64,000 bases of DNA from Anaerolineae bacterium (GTDB taxonomy: Bacteria > Chloroflexota > Anaerolineae > Aggregatilineales > Aggregatilineaceae): positions 215,471-279,470 of the forward strand of contig JAHDWP010000001.1 in the NCBI GenBank assembly GCA_023382715.1, in the 5' to 3' direction. This document shows, in pieces, positions 34,655 to 43,074 of the stretch. Numbering within the stretch: position 1 is the stretch's first letter; each line of letters begins with the position of its first letter. Made by a program: the position numbers and the translations under genes. The notes beneath the pieces are model-generated. The model ran no database searches. It had not been told where the DNA came from and worked only from the letters and a program-made list of their open reading frames with translations.

Positions 34655-35275
34655 TCAGGCGCTCGGCTCGTCGAGGCGGACGAGCGCAGCCTGCCCGGCG
34701 GTCAGGTGGGTGATGGCCGCTTCGAGCGGGGCGATCTGATCAAGCGGAAGCGTGGCGTAGACGGTGACCTCTGCCGCGAACTCCTCATCGGTGATCAGCG
34801 CCTGGTGCTCCGCGAGCAGCAGCTTGAGGCGCTCGTAAGCGCCATAGGGAACGGTGACGCCCACCGGCTGCTTCTCGACCTTCAGCTCGATAGGTAACGC
34901 GGCGATAGCTTCTTTGGCAGCTCCCCCATAGGCGCGCACCAGGCCGCCGGTGCCCAGCTTGGTGCCACCGAAGTAGCGCGTCACGACGATGACCGCGTCG
35001 CCGAGATCTGCGCCGCGCAGGACGGCCAGCACCGGCGGGCCGGCGGTGCCAGATGGCTCGCCATCATCGGACACTCCTTCGGTCACACTGCCCCCGTAGC
35101 CGACTTTGAAGGCATAGACGTGGTGGGTAGCGCCCGGCATCTCGTCGCGGACCGCCTGGATGAACTGCCTGGCCTCAGCGACCGTGTCCGCGCGGCCAAT
35201 GGTGGCGATGAAGCGCGAGTTGACGACGACGGTCTCAACGCGCGTTGTCTGGGCCGGGATTGGATACTTCGTCAT
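34655..35275 (-). CDS. yigZ: YigZ/IMPACT family protein
   Basis: A 206-residue protein of the UPF0029 family. The N-terminal IMPACT domain has VNSRFIATIGRADTVAEARQFI near 18-39, PGATHHVYAFKVG, and the glycine-rich VSDDGEPSGTAGPPVL and TRYFGGTKLGTGGLVRAYG, which are the family hallmarks. The C-terminal part is a small alpha/beta domain. Eukaryotic IMPACT regulates translation through GCN2; the bacterial role is not settled. Its start lies 41 bases inside the end of recJ, so it is the last gene of the recombination block and is probably translationally coupled. Confidence 0.95.
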   Translation of the reverse strand: MTKYPIPAQTTRVETVVVNSRFIATIGRADTVAEARQFIQAVRDEMPGATHHVYAFKVGYGGSVTEGVSDDGEPSGTAGPPVLAVLRGADLGDAVIVVTRYFGGTKLGTGGLVRAYGGAAKEAIAALPIELKVEKQPVGVTVPYGAYERLKLLLAEHQALITDEEFAAEVTVYATLPLDQIAPLEAAITHLTAGQAALVRLDEPSA

Positions 35276-37619
35276 CGGATTCCCCTTCGAGCAACTGCTC
35301 TGGCGCAGCCCGGCGGAAGTAGGCGCGGTAGGCCGCCGTCTCGTCTACGTGGGCGGCAAAGGCGCTGAGTAAGGTGCTGTCGCCCTCGACGAGGGGGCTG
35401 GCCCCGCCTGTCAGCGCCAGGTTGCCGGCGGAGTCCTCGCGCCAGTCCAGCGCGCCACGAGAATGCAGGTAGCGCAAAGCCAGCCGAACGGTCTCCGGCG
35501 GTTGGGCGACGGCCTCGGCCAGCGCGCGGATCGTGGTGTCTCCCTCTTCGCGGTTGATGATAAACCTGGACAGCTCGATCAGGCGGCGCAGCACAGCGTC
35601 GCGGCTGACGAGCAACGGGTCGGCGCCGATCAGCACGATGCGCACTGGCTTCACTGTACGCAGCGCATCCGACAGGGCCTGCGGGCTGCTGGGAGCGGTG
35701 AAGATGACGAGCGTCTCGCCCGGCTGAAGCGAGGACAGCGGCAGCCCCGGCGACTCTGCCCGGCGATACCCTTCGGCCCAGACGACCGCCTGAGGGTATC
35801 TATGCTGGATGTCGGTCAGCGCTGCCAATGCCTGGGCAGGGTAGGGGGACTCGCGCCGATCCACGACGGGCCGCGCGGGAGTCTGCGCTATGACGGGCGC
35901 GGAGGGCGAGGGCCGATAGTCTCGCAGGGTAAGCTGCAATTCCGGCTTGTCGCGATAAGCGCTGATCTGCACCTGAAACGCCAGGTCGAACAGGCCGGCG
36001 GGCAGGGCGGCGCTGGCGCTGTCCCACCAGAGCACTCTCTGGCGCACGCCTTCCTCGTCGCGCACTGTAAGCTGGCGGTGCGCTCCCTCGCGCCCCAGAG
36101 TCGTGGCGCTGTCCAACAGCAGCCGCTCACTGACCAGAGTGGGGCGCGGGTTTCCTTCACCGAAGGGGGCCAGGCGCTCGATGTCACGGGCCAGGTCGAG
36201 CGTCACCTCGCGCAGGGAAAGCACTGCGTCAATGGGCAGGCGGGATTCTGCGAGTGGAGCGGGCTGGGCCGCCAGCGCGTCGGACAGGAGCCGGCGGAAG
36301 GCCGGGATATGATCGGCGGGCAGCGAGAGTCCCGCCGCGCCGGGATGTCCGCCGAAGGTGCGCAGCAGGCCGGCCAGGGAGGCGATGGCCGCGCTGATGT
36401 CGTAGCCGCCAAAGGAGCGAGCAGAGCCGCGCGCCGTGTCGCCGCTGAGAGTCAGCAGCACGACCGGGCGTGCGTATTGCTCGGCCAGGCGATTGGCGAC
36501 AATGCCGAGCAGCCCCGCGTGCCAGGCGGGAGAGGCCAGGACCAGGGCGCGCCATTCCAGCAGCGCCGGGTCCTGCTCGATCTGCGCCTGGGCCGCGGCC
36601 AGAATCTGGCGCTCGAACAGGCGGCGCTGGTTGTTGAGGGCCTCCAACTGCGATGCGAGCATCTGCGCCTGTGCTGGATCGGTCGTCGTCAACAGGTCAA
36701 CCCCCAGACGCGCATCGCTCAGGCGGCCCGCCGCGTTGAGGCGCGGGGCGATCTGGAAGGCGATGTCGGTCTCGGTGAGCGCGCCGGGGTCGAGCCGGGC
36801 GATTTCGCACAGGGCAGACAGGCCAGCGCGCTCCGCCTGGCGAAGCTGCGCCAGGCCGATCTGGAACAGGTAGCGGGTGTCGTCGCGCAGGGCGGCGACA
36901 TCGGCGACGATGCCCAGGGCGGCGAGATCGGCCTGCGGTGTGCCTGCTGCGGGGCGCTGGGCCGCGTCGAAGAGCGCCTCGACCAGCTTGTAGGCCACGC
37001 CCACGCCGGGCAGCGCGGCGAGCGGATGCGCGGGTGGCAGACGTTTGGGATTGAGCACGGCGTCGGCGGCGGGGAGGGCATCCGGCAGGTCATGGTGGTC
37101 GGTGATGATGACGGCGAGGCCGTTCTGCTTCGCATAGTCAACAGCCTCGTGTGCCGAGATCCCAGTGTCGCAGGTGAGCAGCAGGACGGGTGCGTGCTGG
37201 CTGATCTGCTCGGCCAGGGCAGGGAGGTGGACGCCGTGCGATTCCTCCAGGCGGTCGGGGATGTAGTAGGCGACCGTCGCGCCGAGGCTCTGCAAGGCAG
37301 TGATGAGCAGCGCGGTGGCCGTCTGCCCGTCCACGTCGAAGTCGCCCCAGACGAGGATCGTCTGGCGGTGGCGGATTGCCGCCTGGAGGAGCGCGATCGC
37401 GGCCTCCAGGTCTGGCAGGGCATCGGGCGGCGCGGGGCGATAGTGCTGCGGGTCGAGGAAGGCGCGGGCGGCGTCGGGCGTGGTGAGTCCGCGAGCGGCC
37501 AGCAGCGAGGCGACGAGCGGCGAGACGCTCAGCGCGCGGGCCAGGTCGTCGGAGACGGATTGCAGGGAGAGGGTCGCAGGCGGCTCCCAGATCAAGCGCT
37601 TCGCGTAGTCATTCACCAC
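35235..37619 (-). CDS. recJ: Single-stranded-DNA-specific exonuclease RecJ
   Basis: A 794-residue DHH-family 5'-3' exonuclease starting with GTG. The metal motifs GDFDVDG at 92-98, SHGVHLP near 128 and DHH at 174-176 (ITDHHDLPD) are intact, as is the DHHA1 block FGGHPGAAGLSLP near 410. Past the OB-like domain (ending near 560) there is an extra tail of about 230 residues with a helical, winged-helix-like segment (IRALAEAVAQPPETVRLALRYLHSRGALDW), similar in length to the long RecJ of Bacillus. The start is one base after the stop of the RecB-like nuclease gene upstream, and yigZ overlaps its end, so all three share a message. RecJ works with RecQ or RecFOR in gap and end repair. Confidence 0.96.
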   Translation of the reverse strand: MVNDYAKRLIWEPPATLSLQSVSDDLARALSVSPLVASLLAARGLTTPDAARAFLDPQHYRPAPPDALPDLEAAIALLQAAIRHRQTILVWGDFDVDGQTATALLITALQSLGATVAYYIPDRLEESHGVHLPALAEQISQHAPVLLLTCDTGISAHEAVDYAKQNGLAVIITDHHDLPDALPAADAVLNPKRLPPAHPLAALPGVGVAYKLVEALFDAAQRPAAGTPQADLAALGIVADVAALRDDTRYLFQIGLAQLRQAERAGLSALCEIARLDPGALTETDIAFQIAPRLNAAGRLSDARLGVDLLTTTDPAQAQMLASQLEALNNQRRLFERQILAAAQAQIEQDPALLEWRALVLASPAWHAGLLGIVANRLAEQYARPVVLLTLSGDTARGSARSFGGYDISAAIASLAGLLRTFGGHPGAAGLSLPADHIPAFRRLLSDALAAQPAPLAESRLPIDAVLSLREVTLDLARDIERLAPFGEGNPRPTLVSERLLLDSATTLGREGAHRQLTVRDEEGVRQRVLWWDSASAALPAGLFDLAFQVQISAYRDKPELQLTLRDYRPSPSAPVIAQTPARPVVDRRESPYPAQALAALTDIQHRYPQAVVWAEGYRRAESPGLPLSSLQPGETLVIFTAPSSPQALSDALRTVKPVRIVLIGADPLLVSRDAVLRRLIELSRFIINREEGDTTIRALAEAVAQPPETVRLALRYLHSRGALDWREDSAGNLALTGGASPLVEGDSTLLSAFAAHVDETAAYRAYFRRAAPEQLLEGESDDEVSNPGPDNAR

Positions 37620-37620
37620 C

Positions 37621-38466
37621 TCAGAAACCTACCTCACCTACATCCTCAAAATCCAAAACACCCCCCACAGCATCCCATAAATCCTCTCCCCCCTCAAACT
37701 CGTCAAAGGCACCTGCGACAGTCCCCCGCCCGCACCGCGAGCGGAACTGACAGTGCTCGCACCGACGCACTTCAGCAGTCAACGGCCAGACTCTCTCCGC
37801 AGCCCTGCCTCGAATCTCCTGAAGCAGCCGCTCAAGACGAGCACCATGCTCCTGGTGCTGCTGGCGCGAGCAGGTGAACGTAACCGGCGAGTCAGGCTCC
37901 GCCGGAAACCAGTATATCATCGAGATCATCTCCGGCTCCAGCCAATCGCCCCACATACCCGGCCCCGCAGCAACCGCCAGATAAAGATACAGCACCGTCT
38001 GCATACGCGAAGCCAGCCAGTCCCGACGCAAAACATGCCAATGCGTCTTCCAATCGAAGATGGTCACACGCGCCCCTGGCTCGACAACCACAAGATCAAG
38101 CACTGCCATCGCCCGCGCGCCGAATAACTCAGCGGACAGATGCAGTTCCGGAAAGCGCGCGCCAGGCAGCATGTGCAGCTTCTCAAAGCCCAGATAAGCA
38201 TCCCACCAGGCCGACAACAAGAGATCGTCCGGCCCCGGCGCGATCTCGGCTGCGGGGAGTCCAAGCTGGTGACGCTCGACCAGGCGATGAAACTGCGCGC
38301 CCCGCCGCTTAAATGTCTCATACTCAGACTGCGGCTCTGTCACCATCGCCGGCCATTGCTGTCCCTGTACATAACGCAACTGAAAGCGCCGGGGGCAGTC
38401 TATATAGTCCTGCAAATTTGCCTGGCTGAACGTGAAGCCCTCTGGCAGCATCATCTCGATTGCCAT
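37621..38466 (-). CDS. Free-standing RecB-family (PD-(D/E)XK) nuclease with Fe-S-type cysteines
   Basis: A 281-residue nuclease. Near the start is CPRRF (Cys 24). H60 (RRGAQFHRLVERH) and the core D124 (AVLDLVVVE), D138-W-K140 (IFDWKTH) and the motif III QTVLYLY near 156 make a full RecB-type active site. Three more cysteines near 237-247 (CEHCQFRSRC) with Cys 24 match the Fe-S set of AddB and Cas4. The last 20 residues are acidic. Base composition differs from its neighbours: the plus strand of its 3' half is rich in C and A and poor in G. It abuts recJ (one base apart) and follows the UvrD-like helicase across a palindromic element. Cas4 is an alternative name for the fold, but no cas gene is present. 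Confidence 0.87.
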   Translation of the reverse strand: MAIEMMLPEGFTFSQANLQDYIDCPRRFQLRYVQGQQWPAMVTEPQSEYETFKRRGAQFHRLVERHQLGLPAAEIAPGPDDLLLSAWWDAYLGFEKLHMLPGARFPELHLSAELFGARAMAVLDLVVVEPGARVTIFDWKTHWHVLRRDWLASRMQTVLYLYLAVAAGPGMWGDWLEPEMISMIYWFPAEPDSPVTFTCSRQQHQEHGARLERLLQEIRGRAAERVWPLTAEVRRCEHCQFRSRCGRGTVAGAFDEFEGGEDLWDAVGGVLDFEDVGEVGF

Positions 38467-38496
38467 CTCATCCCTCCGCCGCTAATTCGTACACCT

Positions 38497-38647
38497 AGAG
38501 GCCGTTTGAGAAGTCGTGCGCTTGCCTTTGTCCCCCCCCATCCCAAGCCTCTCCCCCACAGGGACTTAGCGGGCGCGCTTCTCTCCCTTCCCCCCTCGTG
38601 GGGGAAGGGCCGGGGATGGGGGGCAAATAACTTCTCAGATGATCTCT
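38497..38647. repeat. MITE-like palindromic element, family B, copy 1
   Basis: A long imperfect palindrome. The outer arms are AGAG..TTTGAGAAGT (from 38497) and ACTTCTCA..CTCT (to 38647); inside are GTCCCCCCCCATCCC and GGGGATGGGGGGC, and a GC-rich centre with CCCCTC/GTGGGG. TGAGAAGT (38507-38514) and ACTTCTCA (38630-38637) are perfect inverted ends. There is no open frame. It fills the 180-base space between the helicase and nuclease genes; its right end touches the helicase stop codon. A partial relative lies at 55394-55520. Confidence 0.72.
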
Positions 38648-40989
38648 TATCCCTCTCCATACTCGTTGTAGGTGCCCAGGTGGATCAGGGGTAAAGCCGG
38701 TGGGTTTTCAAAGGACGCGCCCTTGTGCGCGTAACGACCGGAGTTCCAGGAGACGATCAACTCGTGCCTGGCCCGCGTGATGCCCACGTAAAACAGGCGC
38801 AACCGCTCGCGCGCACGCTCGACCCGTGCCTCCAGCGTCGCCACGCCCTCCTCATAGGCGGGCAGCGCGCCAACCAGATAGTCCAACTGGGCGAGCAGCT
38901 CCGCCTCCAGATTCAGCCGGGCCATGCTGCCGTCGGCAGAGAAGCGGGTGAACTGCCGCTCGGCAATGTAGCGGTCGTAGGGCATCCCCGACGGGAAGTC
39001 ATAGCCGCTGACGGCCAACAGGTAGACTCGATCCCATTCCAGGCCCTTGGCGGCGTGCATGGTGGCGATGGTCACAACGCCCGGCTTGGGCACATAGCCG
39101 ATCTCGCTATCGTCAAAGCCGAGAAAGCGCCGCTTGTTCTCGTTGATGCTTTTTAGCTCTTCAGCGAACTGAGCCAGCCGCCAGTCGGGATGGCTGGCAG
39201 CCAGCGCGCGCAGCGTCGTGGCGACTTTGTGACCCAGGGCGAGGTCCGCTGGCGCAGCGAACACGTCCTGGGCAATGGTCAGGATCACCTGGTCAATGGG
39301 GAGGTCCGTGCCCTGGAGCCAACGCCTGATGCCCGTCTGGAAGCGGGCCAGCTCCTCACCAACCCAGGCGTAATCGGGCGCGAATTCCGGCAGAACCAGT
39401 GCCGCGCCGGGGTCGCGCGGCCACAGAAATTCCTCGACCGTTGTGGCGGAGGCGAAGTAGCGAGTCAGCGTGGCGGTGGTGGCGGTGTCGGCGGTGACAA
39501 GCTCGCGCCGCTCGTCGGAAAGCTGCGCCCAGAAGGCCTTCTTGAGCTTCTTAGGGTGGGTAGGCTCGCAGAGATATTCCAGGATGTCTAGCAGCCGCCT
39601 CACTGACTGGCGCGTGCGCATTGAGCTGCGCAGCAGCTCCTCGAAAGGGACGTCCTTGTGATCCTTGCGCAGCTTCTCGGCCAGGGCGAAGCCGCGATTG
39701 TTGTCCGGCACGAGCACGGCGACGGTCTCCTGGGGGACCTGGGGCGCATCCTGCCCGAAGTCCAGCAAGGGATGCTCGGCCCCTGAGATGACGTATTCCA
39801 ACTCGGCTGATGCGCTGATCTTTTCATTGGGCCGGTAACGCAGTTCGATGTGGCAGACATCGTCCGGCGGGTTCGGGTCGGGGTCGTCTTCTTCGGTGGG
39901 GTGAATGATGCCGCGCACCGGGCCGTGCGCCGCGCGTGGCTGGTATTCGAAGGTCGTCCTCAGCGCCGGGGCGGGATGATCTTCCGCCGTCCAGCGCACC
40001 AGCTCGTTAGCCAGATCGAGGATGGGCTGCGCCGAGCGGCCTGATACGGAAAGCGGCTTCTCGTCCACGTCTTCACGGTCGAGGAAGCGGCGCAGAAAGC
40101 CCGGATTGGCCGTGGTGAAGGTAGTGTAGATGGCCTGGTTGGGATCGCCAACGCGCACCCAGTTGCGCTCCCCGCTGAGCAGGCGGAGCATCTCCTCTTG
40201 CAGGCGCGAGCTGTCCTGGGCCTCATCCTCCAGGATATAGGGCCAGCGCTGGCGCAGCCGCTCCAGATACTCCGGCTCGCGCTCCAGCGCGTCCAGCGCC
40301 AGGCGGACGAGGTCGTCGAAGTCCACCGCGCCGCGATAGGCCAGGCTGCGCTGGTAGTCGGCATAGACGCTGAGCGCGAAGCGAGTCAGGCCGAGGCCGG
40401 TCCCCTCCGGCGGCAAGAGCGCGAGCAGATCGTCCGGCGCCCGGCGCAGGTCTTTGGCCTGCCTGATGAAGTTGCCGGCCAGTTGGGGCAGGATGCCCTC
40501 AAAGCTGTGCCACGCCCAACGGGAATCAACCTCTGGGTCGAGGTACTGCGCCAGAACGTCGCGCCACTCGGCCAGGCGCTGCGTCACGCTGTCACGCTGA
40601 ATCTCCTGCGACTCTTTCTCGTCGAGGATGAGGAAGTCGTCGGCCAGCCCGACGAGCGCCGGGCGCTCGTACACGATGTCGCGGGCGAGGCCGTGCAGCG
40701 TGCGCACCCGGTAGCCGATGTGCCCGATCAGCCCGTAGTCCTGGGTGAGAATCTGGGCAATGCGGGCACGGAAGCTGTTCACTGCCGAGTTGGTGTAGGT
40801 GACGACGAGCACCTCCTGATCTGGCTTCAGGCGGCTCCTGGAAATGAGCCGCGCCGCTAGGTGCGCCAGGGTGAAGGTCTTGCCGCTGCCGGGCACCGCC
40901 GCAATGCCCAGCTTGCCGCCGCTATAACTGTGCACGATGGCCTGCTGTTCGGGGCGCAGGCGGAAAGTTGGCTGGCTGTCGGGGGTCAT
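38647..40989 (-). CDS. UvrD/PcrA-like SF1 DNA helicase
   Basis: 780 residues with the complete SF1A helicase motif set: Walker A VPGSGKT near 33-39, motif Ia VVTYTNSAVNSF, Walker B YILEDEAQD near 250, motif III VRVGDPNQAIYTTF, motif V ATMHAAKGLEWDRVYLLAV, motif VI LRLFYVGITRARHELIVS. It unwinds DNA from ends or gaps with ATP. There is no nuclease domain on its C-terminus, unlike AddA or RecB. The start ATG overlaps the stop of the AddB-like gene (ATGA), so the two are made together. The nuclease gene next in line would supply the missing activity. Confidence 0.95.
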   Translation of the reverse strand: MTPDSQPTFRLRPEQQAIVHSYSGGKLGIAAVPGSGKTFTLAHLAARLISRSRLKPDQEVLVVTYTNSAVNSFRARIAQILTQDYGLIGHIGYRVRTLHGLARDIVYERPALVGLADDFLILDEKESQEIQRDSVTQRLAEWRDVLAQYLDPEVDSRWAWHSFEGILPQLAGNFIRQAKDLRRAPDDLLALLPPEGTGLGLTRFALSVYADYQRSLAYRGAVDFDDLVRLALDALEREPEYLERLRQRWPYILEDEAQDSSRLQEEMLRLLSGERNWVRVGDPNQAIYTTFTTANPGFLRRFLDREDVDEKPLSVSGRSAQPILDLANELVRWTAEDHPAPALRTTFEYQPRAAHGPVRGIIHPTEEDDPDPNPPDDVCHIELRYRPNEKISASAELEYVISGAEHPLLDFGQDAPQVPQETVAVLVPDNNRGFALAEKLRKDHKDVPFEELLRSSMRTRQSVRRLLDILEYLCEPTHPKKLKKAFWAQLSDERRELVTADTATTATLTRYFASATTVEEFLWPRDPGAALVLPEFAPDYAWVGEELARFQTGIRRWLQGTDLPIDQVILTIAQDVFAAPADLALGHKVATTLRALAASHPDWRLAQFAEELKSINENKRRFLGFDDSEIGYVPKPGVVTIATMHAAKGLEWDRVYLLAVSGYDFPSGMPYDRYIAERQFTRFSADGSMARLNLEAELLAQLDYLVGALPAYEEGVATLEARVERARERLRLFYVGITRARHELIVSWNSGRYAHKGASFENPPALPLIHLGTYNEYGEG

Positions 40990-43055
40990 GGCTGTGTCCC
41001 AAGAGATGCCTGGCGAAGCTGCTGGAGGATGCGCAGCAGTGGGCCGCGCTGTTCGTAACCCTGCTCGCCCAGCTCGGCGATGGCGGCGTAGACATGCCGC
41101 CGGCAGCGCCGCAGCAAGCCCAGCAGCAGCCGGCGCAGCGCGTCATCGCGGGCGGCAACCTCCATCTGGTCGGTCCAGACCTGGCCCGGCGGGCACTCCC
41201 TGGCAAGCACGTAGGGATGGGTGAGGGGCTGTTCCAGGCGCTCCCACCAGGTGCTGCTGCCCACATCCAGCCAAAACTGGTAGTCCACCCAGCGGTTGCG
41301 CATCAGGAAAGTGTAGGCGGGCGCGAGAAAGACCGCGTCCTGCTGCTCATCGCGCCAGCTTGTCAGGTAGAGCGCAGCCAGCAGACCCTGCTGCACCAGG
41401 GTGAAGTAGTCGCGCAGCACGTCGTCCCAGCCGTCCACTGCGCCGTCCGGGTAGAGCGTCTGGCGGAACTTGCGCGCAGACGCGACCAGCTCGGCGATGA
41501 TACGCCCCGCCTCGGCGTCACTGTGAAAGCCGAAGTCGGGCTGCGACAGCACTTCGCCAAAGAGGCGGCTGAAGAAGTGATCGGGCGGGATGTCGCCGGA
41601 GTCCGTCTGACGATAGGCATCCAGCCAGGCGCGCAAGCGCTCGTAACGCTTGCCGGCCACGTAGGTGATGCGCTGCTGCGTGGCAGACTGGATGCGGTCG
41701 AACGAGCCAAGCTCAGGCTGGCCGGGTCGGTATACAATCTGGGCCAGCAGCCAGGCGCGCACCGGGTCAAGCCCGGCGATGGAGCGGCTGAGCGCGTCGG
41801 CTACGTCCTGCACGGGCGGGGCGATGCCCCAGTGCGGATGAGCCAGCGCCATCCAGGTGAGCATGACGCGCGCCTGCGGCTCTTCGCGCAGCGCGCGCGA
41901 TGGGCGGTGCGAGACTGTAGCAATGCCGTGCTCGTCCAGCCGCGTCGTGAGGGCGAAACGCAGGGAATCGCTCATGAAAGGGGCGACTATCACGATCTCG
42001 CGCGGCGGCACCCCGGCCTGGACCAGCCCCGCGATCCCCGCCACGGCCCAGTCCACCATCTGCGGGAAGAAGCGCGCTGAATGCACAGTGAGCACCTGGT
42101 CAAGCGATACAGCGGCGAGGGCAGCCGGTGCTGCTGCCTGGGGAACGATCGCCGAGGACAGCGCCTCGGCAAAGGACACCATCTCCGGGGGCGCAACAAC
42201 CGGCTCGCGCCACTCCTCGCGCTCGTCGGCCAGCTCGGCCAGCGTGCGCATCTCGGCAGGGGCCGCGCCGAGGAAACGCCGCACACCGCCATCGGTGTCG
42301 TAGAGCAGCAGGGCGGACTCCAGCCCCGGCAGCAGCCAGCGGATGAAGTCCCCGACAGCCGAGAACTCCTCATCCAGGTTGTCCGCCACCAGGTGGCGAT
42401 AGTGGCTGCGCAGGTAGCGGACGTAGAGCGGCTCGCTGAGCAGGGTTCTGGTGAACACCTCGATCTGTAGCGAGAAATCGAGCAGACTGTAGTGCAGGCA
42501 GTGCTCGCGGAACTGGCGGGCCACATCCAGGCAGGCACGATAGACCGGCGGGCGGCTGGAATGGCGGTCGCCCCAGGCGGCGATGAGCCGGTCGGCCACT
42601 TCGTCGAGCGGAAGCTGGCTGACGGCTGCCTTCGAGAGGTTGTCGAGCGTCTGGCGCATGATGGCAAACGGGCTGATACTGATGCTGTCGAAGACGCCGG
42701 TTCGCTGCGCATCGAGCACAAGGCGGGCCATGAAGTACTGCGCCGTCTCGACGGTGAGAAAGAGGGGATCCAGCCCCGGCTGGGCAAAGCCAGCACGCTC
42801 AGCGACGAGCGGCCAGAAAGTCTCCAGGCTGCGCCGGGCCAGGCCGCCCAGGGTCACCACGTCAATGCTGGTGCCAGATGGCCACGCCGGATCGGTAAAA
42901 GCGCGCGCGTAGGGCCAGCCGAGCGCCCGCTGCGGCACCAGCACCAGCATCTCGTCACCGCGCGCGCCGGCGTCGAGCAGGTCACGCACGTGCTGGATCG
43001 CGCGGGTTGTCTTGCCGACACCAGCCGGCCCTTCGATGAAGCGTGTGAAAGGCAT
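40986..43055 (-). CDS. AddB-like P-loop protein (UvrD-superfamily, no nuclease domain)
   Basis: 689 residues from the ATG at 43055, which has AGGTGG eight bases upstream. Walker A GPAGVGKTT is at 9-17 and a Walker B-like LVADNLDEE lies near 225-233. The block VLTVHSARFFPQMVDWAVAGI and REIVIVAPFMSDSLRFALTTRLDEHGI resemble motifs III-IV of AddB/UvrD-like proteins. Later helicase motifs V and VI are not recognisable, so unwinding activity is doubtful. The C-terminal 250 residues have no visible nuclease motif or cysteine cluster, unlike true AddB. It is the first gene of the block and overlaps the UvrD-like gene by four bases. A Chi-like sensor or bridging subunit is a possible role, by analogy with AddB; this is inference. 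Confidence 0.75.
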   Translation of the reverse strand: MPFTRFIEGPAGVGKTTRAIQHVRDLLDAGARGDEMLVLVPQRALGWPYARAFTDPAWPSGTSIDVVTLGGLARRSLETFWPLVAERAGFAQPGLDPLFLTVETAQYFMARLVLDAQRTGVFDSISISPFAIMRQTLDNLSKAAVSQLPLDEVADRLIAAWGDRHSSRPPVYRACLDVARQFREHCLHYSLLDFSLQIEVFTRTLLSEPLYVRYLRSHYRHLVADNLDEEFSAVGDFIRWLLPGLESALLLYDTDGGVRRFLGAAPAEMRTLAELADEREEWREPVVAPPEMVSFAEALSSAIVPQAAAPAALAAVSLDQVLTVHSARFFPQMVDWAVAGIAGLVQAGVPPREIVIVAPFMSDSLRFALTTRLDEHGIATVSHRPSRALREEPQARVMLTWMALAHPHWGIAPPVQDVADALSRSIAGLDPVRAWLLAQIVYRPGQPELGSFDRIQSATQQRITYVAGKRYERLRAWLDAYRQTDSGDIPPDHFFSRLFGEVLSQPDFGFHSDAEAGRIIAELVASARKFRQTLYPDGAVDGWDDVLRDYFTLVQQGLLAALYLTSWRDEQQDAVFLAPAYTFLMRNRWVDYQFWLDVGSSTWWERLEQPLTHPYVLARECPPGQVWTDQMEVAARDDALRRLLLGLLRRCRRHVYAAIAELGEQGYEQRGPLLRILQQLRQASLGTQP

Positions 43056-43074
43056 GAGACGCACCACCTGCCGT

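Follow-up and report, generated by a model that had tools for sequence, protein, structure and literature searches.

Bacterial DNA-end resection is taught as the work of fused helicase-nucleases (RecBCD, AddAB and AdnAB) or of the RecQ/RecJ route. The 64,000-nucleotide stretch of Anaerolineae DNA analysed here (the window) raises the question of whether the parts of such a machine can also be encoded, and work together, as separate polypeptides. Four repair genes and a yigZ gene had been described on one strand of the window, and all five were found there, on the minus strand:

40986..43055, minus strand: AddB-like predicted pseudo-helicase, 689 aa, ATG start at 43055
38647..40989, minus strand: UvrD/AddA-type SF1A motor, 780 aa, without a nuclease tail
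37621..38466, minus strand: free RecB/AddB/AdnA-type PD-(D/E)XK nuclease, 281 aa, four conserved cysteines (putative Fe-S)
35235..37619, minus strand: RecJ 5′-3′ ssDNA exonuclease, 794 aa, with a C-terminal extension
34655..35275, minus strand: yigZ/IMPACT-family gene at the end of the operon

The close packing noted for these genes proved real on re-checking. The AddB-like and UvrD-like genes share a 4-base ATGA overlap, recJ lies one base from the nuclease stop, and yigZ overlaps recJ by 41 bases. An alternative upstream GTG start is possible for the AddB-like gene at 43067. The spacer between the uvrD-like and nuclease genes (window positions 38467-38646) is 180 bases long; in relatives the distance between matched ends is mostly -2 to 105. 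Within it lies an extended, imperfect inverted repeat (CCCCCATCCCCGGCCCTTCCCCCACGAGGGGGGAAGGG...GGGATGGGGGGGG; fold z-score -3.6), which is possibly a small dispersed palindromic element.

An AF2 model of the AddB-like protein (pLDDT 90.6) spans the whole UvrD/AddB/AdnB core. In fold searches it matched UvrD, with Z values up to 29.8; AdnB, with Z 25.1 and an rmsd of 4.0 over 610 residues; the stretch 2-696 of AddB, with Z 22-23; and also AdnA 21-711. The chain stops at the point equivalent to AddB 696, with no C-terminal Fe-S nuclease following it. Across an alignment of 33 relatives, Walker A is kept, with G14 and K15 invariant; Walker B/motif II reads D-N-x-E-E instead of D-E-x-D (94-100%), motif III has degenerated, and neither motif V nor motif VI is present. 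Since this pattern is conserved across relatives, it points to a conserved pseudo-helicase and not to a decaying helicase. The protein is thus a predicted inactive SF1 helicase with Walker A only, the arrangement that characterises AddB, and the initial annotation was right that it lacks both the late helicase motifs and a nuclease tail. The curated AddB models were not passed: ADDB_N gave 16.1 bits against a Pfam cut-off of 26.6, and no NCBIfam model, TIGR02773 included, matched, whereas the Anaerolineae's own AddB reaches 39.2 bits with ADDB_N, above the cut-off. In profile comparisons, UvrD-nuclease fusion proteins are its closer relatives (E 9e-22), the AddB of the class itself matching at E 9e-13.

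The UvrD-like protein matched PF00580 (164 bits) and UvrD_C, and a Pfam/NCBIfam scan detected no nuclease domain, in agreement with the earlier observation that it lacks a RecB-type tail. SF1A motifs I, II (DEAQD), III, V and VI are nearly 100% conserved in 17 motor relatives, and the profile matches AddA (E 6e-42) and PcrA (E 1e-39). The motor motifs of an AddA/RecB protein are therefore complete, but the fused C-terminal RecB nuclease domain is absent, and the chain, at 780 aa, falls short of the 1132-1265 aa that most AddA frames reach in relatives.

The nuclease is found on its own chain, as had been proposed. The free protein matched PDDEXK_1 (PF12705) with 78.4 bits, and residues H60, E107, D124, D138-x-K140, Q156 and Y160 are invariant in 20 of 20 relatives, as are all four cysteines of the set recognised earlier (C24, C236, C239 and C245). 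Its AlphaFold model (pLDDT 84) best fits the nuclease domain of AdnA (residues 781-1039; Z 17.8 with an rmsd of 3.0 over 226), followed by the AddB nuclease domain 777-1134 (Z 14.9) and, near the AddB value, by Argonaute-associated Cas4 proteins (Z 14); Cas4 (Z 11.4) and RecB (Z 10) score clearly lower. The conserved H..D..DxK, QxxxY and C...CxxCx5C set, together with the nearest fold, places it among the AddB/AdnA-type Fe-S nucleases. Cas4 identity was rejected on this fold ranking and on the score with the Cas4 model TIGR00372 (24.2 bits against a cut-off of 65), and TM0106 identity was likewise rejected on scores and fold. The cysteine spacing, CxxCx5C, differs from the CxxxCx5C of Anaerolineae AddB, and by profile the nuclease is nearer to UvrD-nuclease fusion proteins than to that AddB. 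Because their folds match AddB 2-696 and the AddB/AdnA nuclease domains, respectively, the AddB-like protein and the nuclease together correspond to one AddB/AdnA. It is the AddA/AdnB nuclease for which the set has no counterpart.

RecJ scored 482 bits with TIGR00644 (cut-off 396.9) and has DHH, DHHA1 and OB domains, followed by a C-terminal extension of about 225 aa (residues ~568-794; window 35235-35918) with no Pfam match. This extension is common to the module-linked RecJs and absent from an AddAB-linked RecJ of 607 aa. Both forms occur in one genome, G431, where the 607-aa RecJ lies beside AddAB and an 849-aa RecJ beside the module nuclease. The AddAB pair that adjoins the short RecJ there (L137:4868-14404) is intact and has unusually long frames (1581 + 1376 aa). 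YigZ (TIGR00257, 174 bits) follows recJ in near relatives, is linked in only part of the order and is absent from most distant loci and from the Salinibacter cassette described below; it is probably not a functional part of the module.

Taken together, we propose, with a probability of roughly 0.6, that the four genes encode a distinct one-nuclease DNA-end resection machine of the AddAB/AdnAB class, built of separate polypeptides. In AddAB the 5′ strand is the substrate of the AddB nuclease and the 3′ strand that of the AddA nuclease, and the AddB/RecC pseudo-helicases scan single-stranded DNA beside one SF1A motor (PMC4824097). By analogy, we infer a physical complex, a defined strand polarity and a role in double-strand-break repair. 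The UvrD-like protein would be the single motor, unwinding the duplex end 3′-5′ as AddA/AdnB do, without their nuclease. The AddB-like protein may act as a clamp or ssDNA scanner, taking the place of the N-terminal portion of AddB/AdnA. The nuclease domain of AddB/AdnA would have its counterpart in the free Fe-S-type nuclease, which, by homology, would cut the 5′-ended strand; the dedicated RecJ with its extension would degrade that strand further, leaving 3′ overhangs for RecA. With the AddA/AdnB-type 3′-strand nuclease missing, such a machine would need no Chi switch to spare the 3′ strand.

The module is probably a distinct, so far unstudied repair machine. A bolder reading, which we offer tentatively and hold to be possible rather than probable, makes it a further resection class beside RecBCD, AddAB and AdnAB. 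It would then be an obligate complex of several polypeptides with one nuclease and an integral RecJ, specific to the 5′ strand and thereby in no need of a Chi switch, and mobile between phyla as a cassette. If the proposed machine is real, its combination of separate AddAB parts, a single nuclease activity and RecJ would form a bridge between the fused complexes and the RecQ/RecJ routes, and, its proteins being separate, the parts played by pseudo-helicase, motor and either nuclease could be probed by simple omission.

The neighbourhood check suggested with the initial annotation was run, and the arrangement addB-uvrD-nuc-recJ was found repeatedly, both within the order and throughout the class. 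The AddB-like protein was present in 55 of 61 relatives, and in almost all relatives addB and uvrD either overlap or directly adjoin. Among 80 named loci, addB is followed downstream by uvrD in 64 cases, by nuc in 44 and by recJ in 32; contig ends account for many of the missing genes. With the order kept across the class and the whole cassette present in another phylum, the gene set is far beyond chance. A profile search for the AddB-like protein was positive in 33 of 41 Anaerolineae genomes and in 0 of 260 other Chloroflexota genomes; those weak single-sequence matches in the latter that were opened are UvrD-family helicase frames, not members of the AddB-like family.

Linkage within the set is uneven, and this is one ground for an alternative in which related repair factors act separately, the AddB-like and UvrD-like proteins as a helicase pair (for example at stalled forks) and the nuclease and RecJ as a 5′-end trimming pair. 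In linkage the set falls into two sub-units, addB-uvrD and nuc-recJ, which are parted in several families, and nuc-recJ adjacency is kept far from addB-uvrD in genomes G124, G431 and G375. In 101 Anaerolineae genomes of at least 95% completeness, the AddB-like protein was found in 66, the motor in 65 and the nuclease in 58. Eight genomes with the AddB-like protein have no nuclease; in at least two (G413 and G396) the module lies at a contig end, and in one genus-level clade (G204, G346 and G418) the AddB-like protein and motor are present and the nuclease is seemingly absent, so the nuclease may not be essential. Against separate action, neither motor nor nuclease was ever found without the AddB-like protein in these 101 genomes. 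Co-occurrence with it gave Fisher p values of ~1e-26 (motor) and ~1e-19 (nuclease), shared ancestry being ignored. The coupling exceeds mere linkage, because it holds where the genes lie far apart: in G387 they occupy three sites at about 0.2, 1.0 and 2.2 Mb along one contig, and they are unlinked in G100, G431 and G063 as well. All four genes also stand together in Salinibacter, and the folds of the AddB-like protein and the nuclease complement each other as the N-terminal and nuclease parts of AddB/AdnA. Separately acting pairs are therefore, in our view, unlikely.

A scan of genome contigs yielded, as its 80 nearest relatives, sequences titled nearly all Anaerolineae or Chloroflexi. Phyla beyond Chloroflexota were sampled through plasmids by tblastn, which returned one near full-length relative, on plasmid pSR56 of Salinibacter ruber M8 (Rhodothermota). 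pSR56 holds the complete four-gene cassette in the same order, comprising a hypothetical protein (the AddB-like protein, 38% identity over 98%), an ATP-dependent helicase (37%), a PD-(D/E)XK nuclease (37.5%) and recJ (41%), with the Walker A, DNxEE, PD-(D/E)XK and cysteine motifs preserved. The module has thus been transferred between phyla as a cassette. As the cassette includes recJ, it ties recJ to the unit independently of the chromosomal neighbourhood, in line with the membership of RecJ claimed earlier; RecJ itself being near-universal, its place in the unit is supported by linkage and by this plasmid. Among the 25 best plasmid RecJ matches, the pSR56 protein, which shares the C-terminal extension, is alone in covering 90% of the query, most of the others ending near residue 571. 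In a RecJ mini-tree the outgroups were too few for the plasmid copy to be placed. A second plasmid match, from Ilyobacter, was set aside: it is UvrD-like with 23% identity and has no nuclease or recJ alongside.

pSR56 is rich in restriction-modification and toxin-antitoxin genes, a setting that would suit a defence system for the degradation of invading DNA (taken broadly, of the Gabija or RecBCD kind), in place of housekeeping recombination repair. The best PADLOC matches for the motor are also Gabija GajB UvrD helicases. These GajB-like matches are, however, confined to the helicase-fold proteins of the operon; neither GajA (an OLD-type nuclease) nor any other PADLOC component was found among its proteins, and Gabija identity was rejected for want of GajA; the PcrA and AddA profiles fit the motor as well or better. 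Neither IMG/VR nor a collection of 50,697 phage records contained a relative, on which a phage or viral origin was rejected. The module is single-copy and occurs in most Anaerolineae families, and in a tree of the AddB-like protein 10 of 12 multi-member families are monophyletic, one with low support, a pattern that fits vertical descent within Anaerolineae. We consider a defence function improbable.

The window's genome is 98.6% complete, and domain searches for an intact addAB, recBCD or adnAB elsewhere in it, named earlier as evidence that would count against the proposal, found no fused or intact AddA, AddB, RecB, RecBCD or AdnA/B. PF12705 occurs only in the module nuclease and a TM0106-like protein, and the clear UvrD-family matches are limited to PcrA, RecD2, the module motor, a GajB-like helicase and a short helicase. 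Anaerolinea thermolimosa has no long PF12705 (AddAB-type nuclease) frame. In both genomes there is thus an apparent gap that the module fills.

Elsewhere in the class, AddAB-type pairs consist of PDDEXK_1 frames of ~1000-1150 aa adjoining frames of ~1150-1260 aa. They score 317-373 bits with AddA TIGR02785 and 85-180 bits with AddB TIGR02773, which is below the strict curated cut-offs, and are full length and adjacent. Such pairs share a genome with the split set, also in relatives from the window's order; examples are G025, G031, G054, G063 and two genomes of the window's own family. Counted as long PF12705 frames, only some of them verified by NCBIfam, AddAB occurs in 23 of the 66 genomes that have the split set and in 12 of the 35 that lack it (p = 1.0). 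Because AddAB occurs independently, the split set neither replaces nor requires it, and with intact AddAB in about one third of genomes the split machine need not be the main end-resection enzyme. The anticipated absence of addAB/recBCD from genomes with the split set accordingly holds for the window's genome and fails for the 23 of 66 that carry AddAB.

The same observations speak against the suggestion, made in the initial annotation, of an AddAB-type machine broken into parts. A literal fission of a normal AddAB that replaced the original would account for the joint coverage of an AddB/AdnA by two chains and for the lack of AddAB in the window's genome, but we reject it as very improbable given the co-existence of independent AddAB pairs, the closer profile match of both chains to UvrD-nuclease fusions than to the class AddB, the ADDB_N scores on either side of the cut-off and the differing cysteine spacing. 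On this evidence, the split set is a parallel, paralogous machine and not a fissioned or derived AddAB.

The proposed one-nuclease machine can be set beside several known systems. With AddAB (RexAB) it shares one SF1A motor, one inactive helicase with Walker A only and an Fe-S-type nuclease of the AddB kind; it differs in that these are three separate polypeptides with a nuclease-free motor, and in that its AddB-like protein falls below the AddB family cut-offs; the set also co-exists with real AddAB and is linked to a dedicated RecJ. Mycobacterial AdnAB resembles it in its UvrD-like subunits, in the AdnA nuclease domain as best fold for the free nuclease and in the fit of the AddB-like protein to AdnB and AdnA 21-711. 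AdnA and AdnB, however, each carry a fused nuclease, whereas the split set has one nuclease in all, on its own protein, and so falls outside AdnAB. As in RecQ-RecJ/RecFOR resection, RecJ would resect the 5′ strand after helicase unwinding, and RecO is present in the window's genome; what sets the module RecJ apart is its linkage to a second nuclease and a motor of the AddAB class, together with a C-terminal extension of its own.

UvrD-Cas4 fusions, linked to defence, and unfused uvrD/cas4-like gene pairs have been described in Clostridiales (PMC5704561). The unfused operon pair is the nearest published precedent beside AddAB and AdnAB, in that it combines a UvrD-family helicase with a Cas4/AddB-type Fe-S nuclease; it differs in that the excerpt of that report mentions neither an AddB-like pseudo-helicase nor recJ (PMC5704561). 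A search of the open-access literature, which leaves subscription journals mostly uncovered, turned up no description of this gene set, of a divided AddAB from Chloroflexota or of pSR56.

Three further features were observed. A short UvrD/GajB-like helicase elsewhere in the window's genome (~555 aa; L009:1384-3051) is a possible defence gene. Upstream of the cassette, pSR56 carries some 20 tandem copies of a 120-base unit (L309:1-2350). Finally, Chloroflexota encode proteins of 930-990 aa in which a UvrD helicase is fused to a nuclease and which have Cas4-like cysteines (L141:5555-8413, L289:353-3313, L290:1087-3960 and L291:6039-8834), and such fusions are the nearest profile relatives of both helicase-fold proteins of the module as well as of its nuclease.
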